DNA of 39,302 nt. It comes from Aquificota bacterium (GTDB lineage: Bacteria; Aquificota; Aquificia; Aquificales; Aquificaceae). Positions 1 to 30,843 of this stretch are shown here, one piece after another; the stretch's first letter is position 1; each line of letters starts with the position of its first letter. A program made the translations under genes and the position numbers. The DNA lies in assembly GCA_030950545.1 (NCBI GenBank), contig JAUZRJ010000111.1:1-39302 (forward strand). The letters are read 5' to 3'. The notes below the pieces were generated by a model. It was not told the origin of the DNA, ran no database searches, and was given only the letters and a program-made list of their open reading frames with translations.

Positions 1-801
1 GTGAACTGCTCTGCTATACCAGAAAATCTCTTTGAGGCTGAACTTTTCGGTTATGAGAAAGGGGCTTTTACAGGCGCTTCCTCATCCAGAGCAGGCCTTA
101 TCGAAAAAGCGAACCACGGGATACTTTTCCTTGACGAAATAGGAGATATGCCCATAGTAATGCAGCCAAAGATTTTGAGGGTTTTACAGGAGAAGAAAGT
201 CAGAAGGCTTGGTAGCAATCAGGAAATACAGGTTAACTTCAGACTTATATGTGCTACCAACAGAGATCTAAGGAAGCTCATAAGTGAAGGAAAATTCAGA
301 GAAGACTTATACTACAGAATATCTACGATACATATACATCTTCCTCCTCTCAGGGAGAGGAAGGAAGACATTCCCGAGCTTGTAAATTGTATCATCAGAA
401 AAGTCTCGAAGGATTGTGGTAAAACCATAAAAGGTTATACTGAAGGGTTTATAAAAAAAATAATGAACTATCCATGGCCTGGAAATGTACGTGAACTTGA
501 GAATGTTTTGTTAAAAGCGGTGGCACTGAGCAGCAGTGGTATTCTCAGAGAAGAAGACCTCAAGCTAAACTATGAAGAAGAAAACACAACAGGGGACTTT
601 GAAACTTATATACGAAGAGAGGTAAGGAAACTCATTAAGGAAAGTCCAGGTAATGTATACCATAAATTGATTAATATGATTTCAAAAATTATTGTAGAAG
701 AAGGGATAAAAGAAGCTGGTTATAATCAACTGCTTGCATCTAAACTTCTCGGCATAAACAGATTAACTTTAAGAAAAAAACTCAAAGATAGTCTAGGATA
801 A
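1..801 (+). CDS. Sigma-54-dependent transcriptional activator (NtrC family), 5'-truncated by window edge: AAA+ domain plus Fis-type HTH
   Basis: GAFTGA motif ([17 protein letters not shown]), Walker B-like [24 protein letters not shown]-terminal [19 protein letters not shown]; Walker A lies outside the window. Confidence 0.93.
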
Positions 802-3349
802 AATCCTTTAGCTCAGTAAAGTCCAGAGGGGGTGCGAAGTAATATCCCTGACCTTCATCGCAGCTGAGGTCGATAAGTAAGTTTAGATGATCCTCAGTCT
901 CTATACCCTCCGCCAGAGAAACCGCACCTATGGAGTGGGATAAGTCCACAACAGCCTTTACAACTGCTCTCGCTCTATCACTTTCCACCATTGCGGAGAT
1001 GAAAGATCTGTCTATCTTTATCTTGTCCACATCGAACTCTATCAGGTAGTTCATCGAAGAGTATCCGGTCCCGAAGTCGTCTATTGCGACCTTTATGCCT
1101 ATTTCTCTCATAGTCCTCAGTATGGCTTTGGTCCTCTCTGGGTCCTCCATGGCTGTTGTCTCGGTTATCTCGACCACGAAGTTCTCGGGTTTGACCCTGT
1201 AGGCGTCAAGGAGGTCTCGTATTTTTTCGGTCAGGCCTTCCTCGAGGAACTGCTTGGTTGAGAAGTTCACCGCAACGAAAAGGTCCTCAAACCCAAGGGA
1301 GTGGATCCGGGACAGGTCCCTCACAGCCCTTGCGAGAACGCAGTATCCCAGGTCTATTATCTGTCCAGTGTCTTCCGCTATCTGGATAAACCTAGAGGGT
1401 GGGAGGAGTCCGAGGTCCGGGTGGTCCCACCTCACGAGGGCCTCAAAACCGACCAGCTTTTTATCCTTCAGCCTGAAGACAGGCTGATAGAACACCCTTA
1501 TCTGGTCCTTCATAACCGCGTCTTTCAGACCTTCCCTGAGAACAACTATCTCCTTAAGCTCCTTCTCCGCCTCCTTTGAAAACACGACCACGGTGTTAGG
1601 GCCCGTATCCCTCGCCCTGGATAGGGCTATCTCCGCCTTCCTGATCAGGTCCTGGGGATCGCTTCCGTCCCTCGGAAACAGCGCCACACCCATATAGGCG
1701 TCCACCCTGACCCGGGTGCCGTTAACGGAGAAAGGGTCCTGGAAGACAGACCTCACCTTATCCAAGGCCCTGCTCAGACCCCTCATGTCCTTTATGCCGA
1801 GGAGGGCTACCCCGAACTTGTCCGCAAAGAACCTGCTCACCAGGTCTCCCTGTCTGAGACGGGAGGTGAGCCTGTTTCCGAGAACCTTCAGCACCTTGTC
1901 ACCAGCTTCAGGTCCGTAGAGTGTGTTTATCCTGCTGAAGTCCGCGATGTCCACAAGCAGGATACCCGCCATCTCCCCTCTCCTCTGTGAGAAGCTTAGG
2001 ACCTCCCTGAGTTTCTCGACGAACAGGCTCCTGTTGGGAAGGCCTGTTAGCATGTCGTAGTAGGTCGCCTTGAGGATCCTCTCCTCAAACCTCTTCCTGT
2101 CGGTTATGTCCCTTTCGCTCACGACCGCCCCTTCAAGACCTATCTCCTGCCAGTTCTCCGGCAGGAATATGTTTGCTTCCACCCACTTGTAATCACCTGT
2201 TTTTGTCCTCACCCTGAACTCCGCTGTCCTCGGCTTTCCCGGGTAGCTGAAGACCAGGTTCTTCAACCTCTCGACCATGTCCCTGTCCTCCGGGTGGACG
2301 AACTCTGAGAAGTGCCTTCCCACAACCTCCTCGGGTTCCCAGCCGAAGATCTTAAGGGACGAGGGGCTTTTGTACCTTATACCCCCTTCCCTGTCCATTA
2401 TGGCAACCACATCGTGAGAGTGGGTGAGGATAAGCTCGAGCTTGGCTTTCTCCTCCCTCAGCTTCTTTTCCAGCTCCCTCTCCCTGGTCACGTCCACGCC
2501 TACTCCGAGACCCGCATACCCGTCTTCCAGCCTTATGGTGGTTGCGTAAACTTTGAGTAACCTGTAGCTTCCATCTTTGGTCGTCACCGGGACGTCGAGG
2601 TACTCCACGGGTTCCATCCACCCTTTTATCCTCTTCCTGACGTTCTCCCTTATCATCTCCCTGAAATCGGGATGGACCAGGTCCCAGAGGTTCACCTTCC
2701 TGATCTCATCGGGAGAAAACCCGAGAAGCTCTATCGCATAGGGGTTGGCGTAGATAATCTTCTCCCTGTATATGAATATGAGAACGGGTGCGTTCTCCGC
2801 TATCAGCCTGAAGATCCGCCTCTCTCTCTTCAGCTCCTCCGACAGGCGGTCCTTTTCCAGATACTCCGATATCGCAACCGCCACTGCCTTCAGGAACTCA
2901 ACCTCTTCCTCAAAGAACTCCCTGCGGGAGCGTGAGTAAACCGTCAGGACACCCCACAGCCTGCCGAGATGCTGAACGGGAACCGCCATCAGGCTCTTTA
3001 TACCGTAACGGGTCACAACGTCCCTTTCCGAGAACCTGCCCTCAGAACCGAGGTCTTCGGACCTCACAGGTTTTCCCGTCCTTGAGCAGTAGTGGGCGTG
3101 GGTGTTGCCCTTCAGGGTCCTTCTCCCGACCGCCCCTCCCCTCCACCCGAACCCTCCTACCAGGAGGAACCTGTCTCCCTCAGGGTCGTACCGGAAGACA
3201 CCGCACATGTCAACGTCAAGGGCCCTGACGACCTTTTTGCCTATGAAGCGGAGGAAGTTCCTGAAATCCCTGAACCTGAGGAAGCTCCTGAGCAGGTCTA
3301 CAGAAGCGGTCTCCAGCTTCCTCAGCCTGTCCTCCGGGATTCTGGCCAT
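782..3349 (-). CDS. GAF-PAS-PAS-GGDEF-EAL protein; GGDEF motif degenerate, EAL motifs intact (probable c-di-GMP phosphodiesterase)
   Basis: [25 protein letters not shown] in place of [57 protein letters not shown]. Confidence 0.93.
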
Positions 3350-3383: not shown

Positions 3384-4463
3384 TTATAAACCCTTCAGCT
3401 CCCTCAGGATCTCGAACTGCCTCTCCATGACGTAGTCGCTCACAACGTCCTCCTGTTTGAGGTCCAGGTCGTACTGGATGCCCACCCTGAACACCCCGTC
3501 CCTCCTGATAACGTAGCGGACCTGTCCCGGGGTGTCCACTTCCCCCTTGGGCAGTCTGAACCTGACCCTAACCGCATCCCCCTCCTTCAGGTCGTCCGGG
3601 TCGTTCACGTACACACCCACGCCCCCGACCGAGACGTCCGCCATGGAGCCTGTAGCCTTCCACCCGTCCTTTTCCAGGAAAACGGGTACAGGGTCCTCAG
3701 GGACAACGCGGACGAACCTCCTCCTCTCCTGAGGCAGATCCGCAAGCCCAAGCACCTTCAGCCTCGCCCTTTCCGACCTGGGGTCTACCTCCTCCACCCT
3801 GACACCCACAGCCCCCGGAAGGTCCCTGACCCTGAGGTAAAGACTCTCTCCCTCCCTGAAGATGTTTAGATCGCACCTCTCAACGGTCAGGTCCCGCTGA
3901 CCCACCTCCACGACCTTTGTCCTGCAGACTACGGGAACCTCCTTGTAGTAGGTGAGGACGTCCACCTCCTCCGCATTCCTGATCAGGTCCATCAGGCCAG
4001 TTACGTCCTCCACAGGCTCTTCCTTTTTCTCCCCCGCCTTCTCCCTTAGCTCCCTCAGGTATCTGCTGTACGCGGTTTCCACCGAACCCATGATCAGGTC
4101 TATGAGATCCAGGAGGTCCTTCACTTTCCTGTGATCGCCTCCCCGTTCCACCGTGTAGTCCACATAGTCGCCGATGAGCCTGAGCAGGCTCTTTGTGAGC
4201 GGACCTCTGATGTCCACCCCGTGGGAGGCTAAGGAGTAAAACAGGTCAGAAACCTCCTCACGGAAATCCGACCTGAAGGAGAATATCACCGAGTAGACCT
4301 TCCTGATCAGAACCCTGAGGGTCTGTGTGTTCATGGGACCGGACCTTTCACTTCCTAGGAAGCTCAGGAAGTTATCCACAAACCTCTCCTTATAGCTGTT
4401 GAAGAACTCCCTCTCCCGGCTGATCCTCCCGAGCAGATCCTCTACTCCGCCCCTCCTGTCCAC
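3384..4463 (-). CDS. PilZ-domain protein with helical N-terminal region
   Basis: C-terminal [11 protein letters not shown] (RxxxR) and DVSVGGVGV (D/NxSxxG) PilZ signature; GTG start. Confidence 0.82.
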
Positions 4464-5193: not shown

Positions 5194-6750
5194 GTGATGA
5201 CCAGAGAGGTTAAGCTCGGCCTTTTCGTTCTGATAACTGCCGTTTCCTTCGCCTTTTTAGTTCTTACCTTCGGTGAGATCCCGATCCTCGGGAAGGACAC
5301 GAAGAGCTACACAGCCAGTTTTGAGGACGTGGGCGGTCTCTCGGTAGGTGCGGAGGTGAGAGTCGCAGGTGTCAGGTCAGGAAGGGTAAAGGACCTTTTC
5401 CTCGAGGACGGCAGGGTTAGGGTGGTGTTTGAGGTGGACAGGGAGGTGAAGATCTACAGGGATGCAAGGGCTTACATAGGAACCCTGGGTCTGATGGGCG
5501 ACAGGTACCTGGGGATTATACCCGGAACACCCGTGGCGGGAGAGCTTGAGGAGGGAGAGGAGGTGAAGGCTACCGAGGCGGTTGCGGACACGGACAGGCT
5601 TGTCAGGGAGCTGACCAGAACCGCGGAGGGCTTCAGGGAGGTGGCGGAGAGCCTGAGGGAAGTCCTGGAGGAAAACAGGAGGAGCTTGAGGGAAGTCCTC
5701 AACAACCTGAGGGACCTGACGGAGGTCCTGAAGGAGGTCACGGAGGAAAACAGGGAAAACCTCAGGAGGCTCATAGACCAGATGGCCCAGCTCACCGAAA
5801 ACCTGAACAGAACCCTTCCCGAGACGCTGGCCTCGGTGGAGAGGCTCGCGGACCGGATCTCAGGGATCGCGGACGAGAACAGGGAGGACATAAGGAGGAT
5901 CGTTGCAAACCTGAGGGACATGTCCGAGGACCTCCCCCGCCTCGTTGAGAACCTGAACACCCTTTCCGAGAACCTGGCGGTTGTTGTTGAAGAGAACAGG
6001 GAGGATATCAGGAGGTCTGTCAGGAACCTGGCAGGGATAACCGAAAGGCTCAGGGAAAGCTCCCGCAGAATAGACAGGATACTCGCCAAGATAGAAAGGG
6101 GAGAGGGTACCATAGGAAAGCTCGTTCACGACGAAGAGCTCTACAGGAGCGTCACCAAGGGGGCAAGGCTCTTCGGGGAGGCGGGTGAGGTTATAACGAA
6201 CACAAGCCTGTACCTTGGCTTCGGAGGGGAAGCCTACAGCGGGGGTGATTCCAAGGGCTACGTCTCCTTAAGGATCCAGCCCGAAAGGAGCACCTACTAC
6301 CTTCTGGAGATAGTAGGTGACTCGAGGGGAAGGGTTTACACGGAGCAGATAGTCGGAGGCCAGGAGATAGTGAAGAAGGAGTTCAAGCCCGAGTTTACCC
6401 TCCAGATAGCCAAGAACTTCTTCCTCTGGGGTGAGAGGTACATCACCCTGAGGGCGGGTCTGAAGGAATCAACGGGAGGCGTGGGCCTTGACTTTGTCCC
6501 GTCACCCAGGATGAGGATCTACACCGACGTGTGGGACGTCGGCAGGAAGGACAGGCCCGGAGAGGAGAACCTGAAACCGCTCCTCCAGATCGGACTCCAG
6601 CTCAGGCTGAGAGGTCCCTTCTACACGCGGTTCGGAGGGGATGATCTCCTCAACGACAGGCTGAGGGGTGTTTTTATAGGTGCGGGGCTCGAGTTTTCCG
6701 AGGACAACCTGAAGTACCTTCTCGGCGGTCTGGGTTTACCCCTTCCCTGA
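5194..6750 (+). CDS. MCE/MlaD-family lipid transport protein with long helical repeat and beta-rich C-terminus
   Basis: N-terminal TM then MCE domain (TASFEDVGGLSVGAEVRVAGVRSGRVKDL, LMGDRYLGIIPG); repeated EENRE(D/N)(I/L)RR; start GTG 5194 or ATG 5197. Confidence 0.9.
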   Translation: MMTREVKLGLFVLITAVSFAFLVLTFGEIPILGKDTKSYTASFEDVGGLSVGAEVRVAGVRSGRVKDLFLEDGRVRVVFEVDREVKIYRDARAYIGTLGLMGDRYLGIIPGTPVAGELEEGEEVKATEAVADTDRLVRELTRTAEGFREVAESLREVLEENRRSLREVLNNLRDLTEVLKEVTEENRENLRRLIDQMAQLTENLNRTLPETLASVERLADRISGIADENREDIRRIVANLRDMSEDLPRLVENLNTLSENLAVVVEENREDIRRSVRNLAGITERLRESSRRIDRILAKIERGEGTIGKLVHDEELYRSVTKGARLFGEAGEVITNTSLYLGFGGEAYSGGDSKGYVSLRIQPERSTYYLLEIVGDSRGRVYTEQIVGGQEIVKKEFKPEFTLQIAKNFFLWGERYITLRAGLKESTGGVGLDFVPSPRMRIYTDVWDVGRKDRPGEENLKPLLQIGLQLRLRGPFYTRFGGDDLLNDRLRGVFIGAGLEFSEDNLKYLLGGLGLPLP

Positions 6751-6773: not shown

Positions 6774-7856
6774 ATGTTCGGCGACCAGATACGGAACCTT
6801 TACAGGATAAACCTGAACTTAAAACAGGGTGAACCGCTTTTAGTTTTCACCGACGACGAGAAGGACTATCTGGTCGGTCTTATAGACGAGTTCGTAGAGG
6901 TGGGGAGGGAGTTCACAGAGGATGTCAGGAGTCTGGTCTACCCCTCACTGAAGGTTCACGGGACCGAACCTCCTGAGGACCTCTGGAGGATCACCTTCGG
7001 GGACAGGGCGATAGACGAGCTTGTGGAGAGGGGTCTGTTCGAGAGGATCCTCGAGAAGGACAAGTATCCCGTGGATGAGGTCGTGAAGATCCTGAAAGGT
7101 CTCTCCGAGAACGTACCGAAGGTAGTCGTCGCCTTCCCCTACTTCTCGACAACCCACACCTTCTACAGGAAGGTCCTGACGGACCACTTCGGTGTGAGAT
7201 ACGCGTCGATGCCCCTGTTTGACCCCTCCATGTTCCTGACGTCGATGAACGTAGACTGGGACTACGTTGCCAGGCTCAGCACCGACATAGCGGACCTGCT
7301 GACCGAGGGTGAGTGGGTCCACGTCAGATCCGAGCACGGGACCGATATAGAGTTCTCGATAAAGGGCAGGAAGGGCATAGCGGACACGGGCCTGTTCCAC
7401 AGACCCGGAGACTTCGGGAATTTGCCCGCGGGGGAGGCGTTCGTGGCTCCCGTTGAGACCGAAGCCTACGGCAGGCTCGTCATACTCTACGCACCCGACA
7501 GACAACTCGAAAGACCCCTCACCTTCAAGTTCAGGGACGGAGGTGTTGAGGACATAGAAGGTTTTGAAGAGTACAGAAACTTCATAGAGGACATATTCAA
7601 GAAGATGCCCTCCGCAAGATTTATAGCGGAGTTCGGTGTGGGGACCAACCCCAAGGCTTCAAGACCGGACAACCTCCTCGAGGCGGAGAAGATCTTGGGC
7701 ACTGTCCACATAGCCATAGGGGACAACCACACCTTCGGAGGCACCAACAGGGTGGGTTTCCACACCGACTACGTTGTGTTTAAACCGACAGTTCTTGTAG
7801 GAGGAAGAGGATGGGAAAAAGAACTGCTTCTGAAAGGAAAACTCCAGAAGATATAA
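6774..7856 (+). CDS. Aminopeptidase, M29/AmpS-like family
   Basis: LPAGEAFVAPVETEAYGRLV, AEFGVGTNPKA, GTVHIAIGDNHTFGGTNRVGFHTDYV typical of thermophilic aminopeptidases. Confidence 0.78.
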   Translation: MFGDQIRNLYRINLNLKQGEPLLVFTDDEKDYLVGLIDEFVEVGREFTEDVRSLVYPSLKVHGTEPPEDLWRITFGDRAIDELVERGLFERILEKDKYPVDEVVKILKGLSENVPKVVVAFPYFSTTHTFYRKVLTDHFGVRYASMPLFDPSMFLTSMNVDWDYVARLSTDIADLLTEGEWVHVRSEHGTDIEFSIKGRKGIADTGLFHRPGDFGNLPAGEAFVAPVETEAYGRLVILYAPDRQLERPLTFKFRDGGVEDIEGFEEYRNFIEDIFKKMPSARFIAEFGVGTNPKASRPDNLLEAEKILGTVHIAIGDNHTFGGTNRVGFHTDYVVFKPTVLVGGRGWEKELLLKGKLQKI

Positions 7857-8533
7857 AGCTGGAGTTCATAAGGAAGGTCCACCTCTTTGAGGACCTGGGG
7901 ACCGAAGAGCTCAAAGAGGCGGTCAGGTACATGACCTTAAAGAACTACACCAAGAACGATTACCTCTTCTTTGAGGAGGACGCGGAGCCGGGTATATTCA
8001 TCCTCGTTGAGGGCCTCGTCAAGCTCCTCAAGGAGACCCAAGACGGGAAGACAATAATAGTGAGGCTCGTCTTCCCCGGAGACGTCTTCGGGTGGATAGA
8101 GTGGGGTAAAAACGCACCCAAAAACACCTACACCGCCATGGCTGTTCTCAACTCCACCGTTCTCTACATATCAAACAGGGACTTCATAAATTTAGCTATA
8201 AAGTATCCCGCAATAGCCATAAAGATGACCTGTGACGCGACCGCCAACCTGCTACAGACCTATGAGATCCTGAAAAGCATAGCCTCCGGAAGAGTGGAGG
8301 AGAGGATAGCGAAGGTCATACTCGAGCTCGCGGACAGGATAGGCGTGAAGAAGGACGGGAGCATAGTGATAAGGTTACCCCTCACGAGGCAGGACATAGC
8401 GGAGATGACAGGGACGACCGTGGAGACCGCCATAAGGGTCATGAGCAGGTGGAAGAAGCAGGGCATAATAAACACGGAGAGGGGTTACATAGAGATCATC
8501 AACAGGAGGGAGCTGGAGAAGTTGCTGGTGTAA
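7811..8533 (+). CDS. Crp/Fnr-family transcriptional regulator
   Basis: cNMP-binding-like N-terminus (FEDLGTEEL, GIFILVEGLVKLL, VFPGDVFGW) and C-terminal HTH (PLTRQDIAEMTGTTVETAIRVMSRWKKQGII). Confidence 0.92.
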   Translation: MGKRTASERKTPEDIKLEFIRKVHLFEDLGTEELKEAVRYMTLKNYTKNDYLFFEEDAEPGIFILVEGLVKLLKETQDGKTIIVRLVFPGDVFGWIEWGKNAPKNTYTAMAVLNSTVLYISNRDFINLAIKYPAIAIKMTCDATANLLQTYEILKSIASGRVEERIAKVILELADRIGVKKDGSIVIRLPLTRQDIAEMTGTTVETAIRVMSRWKKQGIINTERGYIEIINRRELEKLLV

Positions 8534-28255: not shown

Positions 28256-28894
28256 ATGAAAATGCTCCTCAAGGTTATACCCGTAGGTCCTCTGGATGTG
28301 AACTGCTCCATAGTAGCTGACCCGTCCACAGGAGAGGCAATAATCGTGGACCCGGGTGCGGAAGGGGAGAGGATAATAGAGGTCGCGAGGGAGTTCAGGG
28401 TAAAGGCTGTGGTCAACACCCACGGACACATAGACCATGTGGGTCAGGTCAGGAAGATAAAAGAGTTTTTCGACGTTCCCTTCTACCTTCACCCCGGGGA
28501 CATACCCCTGATAAGGGACGAGATCTGGCCCGGCTTTGCGACCTACATAAAGGCACAGGAGTGTCCCGAACCAGACGTCCTCCTCGAGGAAGGTATGGAG
28601 ATAAAGGTAGGCGGGATAACTCTGAGAGTCCTGCACACACCGGGACACACACCGGGTCTCTGCTGTCTTTACTCGGAGGAGGAAAAGGTTCTGATAGCGG
28701 GTGACCTCCTCTTTAAGGGGAGCGTCGGGAGGTGGGACCTTCCGGGCGGAGACAGAGAGAAGCTGAAGAAGTCCCTCGAGAGGATCTTCTCCGAGCTTCC
28801 CGACGATACGATCGTCGTTTGCGGACACTACGAGGAGACCACGATAGGCCACGAGAGGAGGTTCAACCCCTATCTCCACGGAGGTCTTCTGTGA
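28256..28894 (+). CDS. Metallo-beta-lactamase-fold hydrolase (glyoxalase II-like)
   Basis: NTHGHIDHVGQVRKI, LHTPGHTPGLCCLYSE, AGDLLFKGSVGRWDLPGGD, VVCGHYEETTIGHER. Confidence 0.93.
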   Translation: MKMLLKVIPVGPLDVNCSIVADPSTGEAIIVDPGAEGERIIEVAREFRVKAVVNTHGHIDHVGQVRKIKEFFDVPFYLHPGDIPLIRDEIWPGFATYIKAQECPEPDVLLEEGMEIKVGGITLRVLHTPGHTPGLCCLYSEEEKVLIAGDLLFKGSVGRWDLPGGDREKLKKSLERIFSELPDDTIVVCGHYEETTIGHERRFNPYLHGGLL

Positions 28895-29658
28895 ACGCGG
28901 TCGTAAGGGTCCAGAACCTCTGGAAGGAGATAGGAGGGAGGTGGATACTCAGAGACGTCTCCTTCGAGGTAATGGAGGGGGAGATATTCTCAATAATAGG
29001 GGCGAGCGGAAGCGGCAAGACGTCTATAACGAAGCACATAGTCGGTCTCTGGAAGCCCACAAAGGGAAAGGTTTACGTGTTCGGAAAGGACATGGAGAGC
29101 CTTTCCTCCGCAGAGATCGATGACCTGAGGAAGGACATAGGTTACGTATTCCAGGAGGGAGCCCTCTTCGACAGCCTGAGGGTGTGGGAGAACGTCGGGT
29201 TCTACTTCCTGGAGCACACGAACATGGACGAAAGAAGTGTCAGGGAGATAGCAAAGGAAAAGCTCAGGCTCGTGAACCTCGGGGAGGAGGTTCTCAACCT
29301 CATGCCTTCGGAACTCTCAGGTGGTATGAAGAAGAGGGTCTCAATAGCGAGGGCCATAGCTACCGACCCGAAGCTCATAATCTACGACGAGCCGACCTCG
29401 GGCCTAGATCCGATAACCAGCAGGGTGATAGACAGGCTCATCGTTGACCTGAGGGAGAGGACGAAGACGACCGCCATAGTGGTCACCCATGACATGATGA
29501 GCGCCTTCTCGATCTCAGACAGGATCCTCGTCCTCAGGAGGGGGGAGGTGGTGGACATCGGGACGCCCGAGGAGATCCTGAGGTCAAGGGACCCCTTCGT
29601 GAGGGAGTTCGTGAGCGAGGTCAGGGAGATCCTAGCTGGTCAGAACAAAGCCCTTTAG
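28891..29658 (+). CDS. ABC transporter ATP-binding protein, MlaF/Ttg2A-like
   Basis: IIGASGSGKTSITKHIVGLWKPTKG, ELSGGMKKRVSIARAIATDPKLIIYDEPTSGLDPITSRVID; GTG start 28891 overlaps the preceding stop (GTGA). Confidence 0.92.
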   Translation: MNAVVRVQNLWKEIGGRWILRDVSFEVMEGEIFSIIGASGSGKTSITKHIVGLWKPTKGKVYVFGKDMESLSSAEIDDLRKDIGYVFQEGALFDSLRVWENVGFYFLEHTNMDERSVREIAKEKLRLVNLGEEVLNLMPSELSGGMKKRVSIARAIATDPKLIIYDEPTSGLDPITSRVIDRLIVDLRERTKTTAIVVTHDMMSAFSISDRILVLRRGEVVDIGTPEEILRSRDPFVREFVSEVREILAGQNKAL

Positions 29659-30843
29659 GAACTCCCTTCTCATAACCGGGTAGTCGTTCTTTACACCCTT
29701 TGAGAGGAGAAACTGGAAGAGGTGGTTGCTCCCCGTGTAGAAGGAAACAGCGGACGCGGTAAGGTAGAGGTCCCACATCCTGACGAACTCCTCCCCGTAC
29801 ATGCTCCTCACGGTGTTTACCTTTTCCCAGAACCTCCTCCTCCACGCCTTCAGGGTCCTGTAGTAGTGGAGTCTCCAGTCGTCTATGTCTATGAGACAGA
29901 AGTCAAGACCTTCAAAGGCTGTTATTATCTCGGGAATGCTGGGAAGATAACCTCCCGGGAATATGTACTTTCTTATCCACCTGCTCTGCTTCTGGGGGTG
30001 AACCTTCCCTATGGTGTGGAGGAGGAAGAGCCCGCAGTCCTCAAGGACCGCGTCCACAGTTCTGAAGAAGGTCCTCATGTTATCTCTACCTACGTGCTCG
30101 AACATGCCTACCGAAACGACCTTGGTGAACTTTCTGCCAAGCCTGGGAAGGTCGACGTAGTGCATGAGGTAAACTTCCACCCTGTCCTCAAGACCCCTTC
30201 TCTTTATCTCCTCCCTCACATACCTGTACTGGTTCTCGGAAAGGGTTATCCCGACACTCCTCAGACCGAAGATCTCCGCACTCTCGAGTATTATGGAGCC
30301 CCAACCACAGCCTATGTCCAGAAGGGTGTCCTCCTCCGAGAGCTGGAGCTTCTCGTAAATAATCCTCCTCTTCTCCCTCTGGGCTTCGTCTATGTCCATG
30401 TCCGGTGATGAGAAGAACGCACAGGAGTATGTCATGGATGAGTCGAGCCACAGCCTGTAGAACTCATCCCCCAGGTCGTAGTGGTGCTGTACGTTTCTCT
30501 TCTCCTTGAAGACGTTCACCCTGCTGATCAGATTCGCAGCCTTGAACAGGAACAGGGAAAAACTACCCTTGCCTTCCACACTGTTCAGATACCTGCTCCC
30601 CGCTATCAGGACCTTTTCCAGATCACCTTCAACCTCTATCTCCCCCCTCATGTAACCCTCCCCGAACCCCATCTCAAGGTCCTTCAGGGTGTTCCTGAAC
30701 GCCTCCCGGGTTTTGAAGACCACCCTGTGGTCCACACCTCCTTCGGGTATGTCCCTCCCGTCGGGAAGCCTTATCCCTATGGTCTCCTCGGAGCAGGAGT
30801 TTATCTCCTCCAGGATCCTCGGGATAAGCTTTTCCTTTATCAC
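29632..30843 (-). CDS. cfa: Cyclopropane-fatty-acyl-phospholipid synthase family methyltransferase
   Basis: [68 protein letters not shown]. Confidence 0.93.

Follow-up and report, generated by a model that had tools for sequence, protein, structure and literature searches.

A helical-stalked MlaD with a predicted C-terminal barrel in Aquificota, a probable transenvelope MlaEFD-type lipid transport protein

The MCE domains solved so far (those of MlaD, PqiB and Mce1) are hexameric rings. Escherichia coli MlaD, the MCE protein of the MlaFEDB system, is a chain of 183 aa without a long stalk or barrel, works with MlaE and MlaF, and depends on MlaC and MlaA. In the mycobacterial Mce1 complex (8fed), a heterohexamer, the MCE domain is combined with a long helix, the helices form a tube, and each subunit contributes one strand to a small barrel. 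E. coli PqiB is an MCE protein with a periplasm-spanning helical tunnel (PMC10665443). It has more than one MCE domain, is partnered by the outer-membrane lipoprotein PqiC and lacks a barrel.

The closest described system is that of Veillonella parvula, whose MlaD comprises a transmembrane domain (TMD), an MCE domain, a helix of ~150 aa and a ten-strand C-terminal barrel, and acts without MlaA and MlaC (Grasekamp et al. 2023; PMC10665443). In that work the TMD-MCE portion fractionated with the inner membrane and the barrel with the outer membrane, the ten-strand barrel was argued to be too narrow for a phospholipid, transport was argued to run from the outer to the inner membrane, and barrel-type MlaD was reported across diverse diderms, with a barrel predicted in ~10% of MlaD sequences; the full-length structure was not confidently modelled (PMC10665443). 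The main text of that paper names neither Aquificae nor Aquificota, although Aquificota may be included in its trees, and the literature searched yielded no experiments on Aquificota.

Here we describe an mlaD-like gene from an Aquificota bacterium of the family Aquificaceae, located in a window of 39,302 nucleotides (the whole stretch of DNA analysed, positions 1 to 39,302 of contig JAUZRJ010000111.1 in assembly GCA_030950545.1). We read its product as an elongated, transenvelope MlaEFD-type MlaD that would bridge both membranes, a reading to which we assign a probability of roughly 80%; its hexameric state, outer-membrane location and role in lipid transport are what we infer. Like Veillonella MlaEFD, the system combines a TMD, an MCE domain, a long helix and a predicted ten-strand barrel (the barrels being compared by published description) with encoded MlaE, MlaF and TamB and with absence of MlaA and MlaC. 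The initial annotation had pointed to the MCE-helix-barrel layout of Veillonella MlaD, which PMC10665443 confirms. It differs in its length (518 versus 419 aa), in its stalk (~170-175 versus ~150 residues), and in having scattered mla genes in place of a single operon, in a thermophile lineage where it is known from sequence and prediction. With E. coli MlaFEDB it shares the MCE domain and MlaE/MlaF-type partners, with PqiB the combination of MCE domain and helix, and with Mce1 the MCE domain followed by a long helix; unlike Mce1, each chain here is predicted to carry a full ten-strand barrel.

The open reading frame, its length and the peptides quoted from it in the initial annotation are as described there, and the start codon may be either GTG at 5194 or ATG at 5197. 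A transmembrane segment followed by a single MCE domain, also proposed earlier, is borne out by the AF2 model and by a PF02470 match of 74.2 bits against the curated Pfam cut-off of 25.1 (E 9.8e-21), and the protein is the only MCE protein in its source genome (1.53 Mb, 99.66% complete). The fold of the domain matches 5uw8_B, the E. coli MlaD core, with a target-normalised TM-score of 0.87, and the top PDB sequence match is 8fed_B (E 3.2e-16); among PDB entries the MCE-plus-helix part resembles Mce1 subunits and MlaD. Its nearest relatives, from Aquificaceae and Aquifex, are 53-80% identical over the full length. Two narrower family models were tried and membership was rejected because the scores lie under the curated cut-offs: TIGR04430, the proteobacterial MlaD equivalog (91 bits versus 135), and TIGR00996, mycobacterial Mce (131.9 versus 140.5 bits, just short).

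Table 1. Coordinates of the mlaD-like gene, its parts and the probable ATPase partner gene in the window
Feature	Position	Strand	Basis or remark
mlaD-like gene, 518 aa	5194..6750	+	TM, MCE domain, helical stalk and beta-barrel, in order
N-terminal TM helix, residues ~4-26	5203..5271	+	AF2 helix 4-26 (pLDDT ~50 there); hydrophobic KLGLFVLITAVSFAFLVLTFG
MCE/MlaD domain, residues 36-111	5299..5526	+	PF02470; fold match to E. coli MlaD core
Helical stalk, residues 129-302	5578..6099	+	ENR units, hydrophobic stripe; AF2 helices, low confidence
Stalk-barrel junction GEGTIGKLVHDEELYRS (GxGTxGKLxxDxxLY)	6100..6150	+	Near-invariant in alignment A1
Ten-strand beta-barrel (predicted), residues 338-502	6205..6699	+	Ends in GxxLxF (beta-signal-like)
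MlaF-like ABC ATPase, probable partner	28894..29658	+	Single-stretch matches to 7d06_B, 6z5u_K and 7ch8_I (MlaF chains), 188-190 bits; apart from mlaD

Downstream of mlaD lie a gene for an M29-like peptidase (PF02073 barely under the cut-off) and one for a Crp/Fnr-type regulator, in the window (6774-8533) and likewise at two related loci, L003 (6584-8355) and L012 (6591-8350); the genes 5' of mlaD differ among the three. In the window, the minus strand just upstream encodes a GGDEF/EAL-type protein that also contains GAF and PAS-like parts (782-3349) and a PilZ-like protein (3384-4463), both named by eye.

The initial annotation had described about 170 aa of helix after the MCE domain, with four related units, and both observations hold. 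The ENR units begin at exactly the positions it gave (5668, 5743, 5872 and 5989, i.e. residues 159, 184, 227 and 266), at uneven spacings of 25, 43 and 39 residues, on account of which we rejected a regular tandem repeat; what the units share is helical phase. Self-similarity of the stalk peaks at an ungapped score of 135, at a lag of 25, compared with a maximum of 58 in plain shuffles (n=300) and a 95% quantile of 106 in shuffles that keep the phase, 0/300 of which reach 135. Hydrophobicity has one sharp peak, at a period of 3.57 residues over residues 128-305, a strength reached by none of 1000 shuffles, and the period lies between 3.565 and 3.58 in 12/12 aligned Aquificota orthologues despite length differences of 4 and 11 residues. 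Plotted on a helical wheel, 58 residues fall within a 120-degree arc that includes no charged residue; the opposite side is 58-95% charged, and the phase drifts within ~45 degrees over 174 residues, which as a straight helix would extend ~26 nm. The full-length AF2 model places helices at residues 132-225, 233-239 and 247-301 with poor confidence (pLDDT about 40, below 50); given this and a pTM of 0.36, only domain boundaries were taken from that model. Pfam matches of the stalk (apolipoprotein, ATG17 and similar) fell under their cut-offs and were set aside as coiled-coil or amphipathic cross-matches. Among Aquificaceae, stalk length differences of 4, 7, 11, 14 and 43 residues, compared by hand, fit sums and differences of heptads and hendecads.

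The stripe is as required for a tube-lining helix, and helices bundled in some other number would show the same pattern. Stripe geometry alone cannot separate a narrow coil from a hexameric tube, which leaves room for an ordinary dimeric or trimeric coiled coil. On that view the protein would be a structural fibre across the envelope, to which the MCE domain is incidental. We regard such a fibre as the least probable of the readings considered here, since solved MCE domains are hexameric, Mce1 subunits, with their tube-forming helices, are among its nearest relatives of known structure, and MlaE and MlaF partners are encoded.

For the C-terminal part, a barrel had been put forward as an inference, with structure prediction as the proposed check. 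Strands run from residue 338 to 502 in the full-length AF2 chain, and residues 330-518 modelled as an isolated domain from a 13-row alignment yield ten long antiparallel strands predicted to form a barrel, with a mean pLDDT of 82 and a pTM of 0.75, together with a short hairpin that lengthens strands 3 and 4 (from the strand list) and a short C-terminal helix. A Foldseek search of this domain against the PDB returned first 8uzl, a designed ten-strand transmembrane barrel (E 3.6e-05), then OprF, OmpG, EspP and OmpA; most of the folds it matched are barrels, either from outer-membrane proteins or designed for the membrane. Alternation of hydrophobic and polar residues along the strands scores 2.87, against 1.48 +/- 0.33 in shuffles, with 0/5000 reaching the observed value. 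The prediction and these comparisons support the assignment of the domain as a ten-strand barrel of outer-membrane type. Its last strand ends in GxxPhixF, a motif that a Polyangiaceae relative also retains. The motif is similar to the signal that BAM recognises and may be a beta-signal; the junction core GxGTxG(K/R)L is present in that relative too.

Classic outer-membrane proteins end at their last strand. Here a short conserved helix (LKYLLGG) follows it, a feature that would suit a periplasmic lipid-binding or docking domain better than an outer-membrane barrel. We nevertheless hold a periplasmic domain to be very unlikely in view of the kinds of barrel that Foldseek returned, the strong strand alternation, the retention of the beta-signal-like last strand in the Polyangiaceae relative, and the recovery of the Veillonella counterpart in the outer membrane (PMC10665443). 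With a hydrophobic N-terminal helix at one end and the predicted barrel at the other, the protein is probably anchored in both membranes.

The partners expected of an MlaD are encoded in the same genome. MlaE is present as a single copy; it scores 267 bits, which exceeds the Pfam cut-off, and it also exceeds that of TIGR00056 (MlaE family). When the operonic MlaF of a relative was used as query, the MlaF-like ATPase of the window scored 239.5 bits and the next ATPase of the genome 110.3. Its gene is convergent with one for a cyclopropane-fatty-acid-synthase-like methyltransferase (29632-30843, minus strand; named by eye from motifs), also lipid-related. TamB and two Omp85 proteins are encoded as well; MlaA and MlaC were not found in the source genome. 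Although mlaD, mlaE and mlaF are dispersed here, they belong together in the phylum because they are directly adjacent, in the order mlaE-mlaF-mlaD, in two genomes (L054, L056) of another Aquificota family, f5, whose MlaE and MlaF are 48-52% and whose MlaD is 34-35% identical to the proteins of the source genome.

Across the phylum, the barrel was detected in 125 of 136 Aquificota genomes, usually once and within a frame of ~480-590 aa in which the MCE domain lies as well, and MlaA in 0 of 136. The barrel profile misses family f4, where loss was considered, but the MCE protein of genome G113 (L061, 452 aa) still has a beta-rich end with GxxVxF; judged by this sequence, its barrel looks diverged, not lost. 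The MCE-to-barrel distance is mostly 204-222 residues, with ~179 residues in the 479-aa proteins of genus g10 (G058-G061) and 192 in genus g19 (G094, G095). Some genomes (G001, G007, G029-G033, G098 and G104) encode an additional MCE protein of ~298-315 aa, a length that leaves no room for the barrel, and in one (G131:C2:205264-213935) two long mlaD copies with identical scores in both searches lie ~7.2 kb apart.

Since profile A3 includes the Polyangiaceae sequence, its match in that genome arises by construction, and the independent test is profile A4, which leaves out all non-Aquificota sequences. Within the phylum to which the Polyangiaceae relative belongs, A4 gave barrel matches in 89 of 141 genomes, and at three loci there (L043, L044 and L051) a TM segment, MCE-like part, helix, GxGTxGxLv and barrel were recognised by eye in one frame. 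Aquificota and the Polyangiaceae-containing phylum share a homologous barrel. The MCE-helix-barrel protein carries the signature LxLQPxxxKYY...DxRG, GLxESTGGxG and GxDDLLN...FxGxGLxF.

In the mechanism we propose, six copies would assemble with their MCE ring on an MlaE2F2 transporter at the inner membrane, by analogy with Veillonella, and the six helices would pack into a hydrophobic tube ~26 nm long. Six barrels, inserted by BAM, would anchor its distal end in the outer membrane, and the assembly would substitute for MlaA and MlaC. MlaF would power the sliding of phospholipid along this tube, and transfer would most likely be directed out of the outer membrane and into the inner one, as argued for Veillonella. 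The barrel would more likely be an anchor or docking piece than a lipid pore, because ten strands leave a lumen too narrow. The initial annotation had spoken of a possible one-protein lipid bridge: its layout stands and the partners MlaE and MlaF are encoded, but the protein is more aptly described as a probable homo-oligomer that acts jointly with them and would form part of such a bridge in the living cell.

The same narrowness, as argued for Veillonella (PMC10665443), could be taken to mean that the protein spans the envelope with its barrel in the outer membrane and yet serves mainly as a tether or ruler of periplasm width, with lipid carried by TamB-like proteins; the presence of TamB and the recurring MCE-to-barrel distance would agree with this. 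We think such a role unlikely. The source genome keeps the MlaE permease and the MlaF ATPase, whose genes are operonic with mlaD in relatives, an arrangement that fits transport, and the hydrophobic face of the stalk is continuous and uncharged.

Counting against the MlaEFD reading are the low stalk pLDDT, the scattered genes, and the TIGR04430 and TIGR00996 scores below cut-off. The kind of system is already known, and the Aquificota protein is a well-supported member of it. What is added is its phylum-wide presence in Aquificota without MlaA, a single well-defined barrel family common to two phyla, a conserved stalk phase, and the identification of scattered partners.

The transenvelope MlaEFD model is thus extended to a thermophilic phylum, where this minimal system appears to be the only such system. 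It is a good target for a full-length structure, given thermostable proteins, usually one MCE gene per genome and the compact mlaEFD operons of f5, and the barrel signature allows a direct sequence test of barrel ancestry. The chances seem to us evenly balanced that one homologous MCE-helix-barrel protein is the only Mla-type lipid bridge of the whole of Aquificota and is common to the Polyangiaceae-containing phylum, with stalk length tracking periplasm width; if so, MlaD would have inherited its barrel from ancient ancestors, as opposed to having gained it late and repeatedly.
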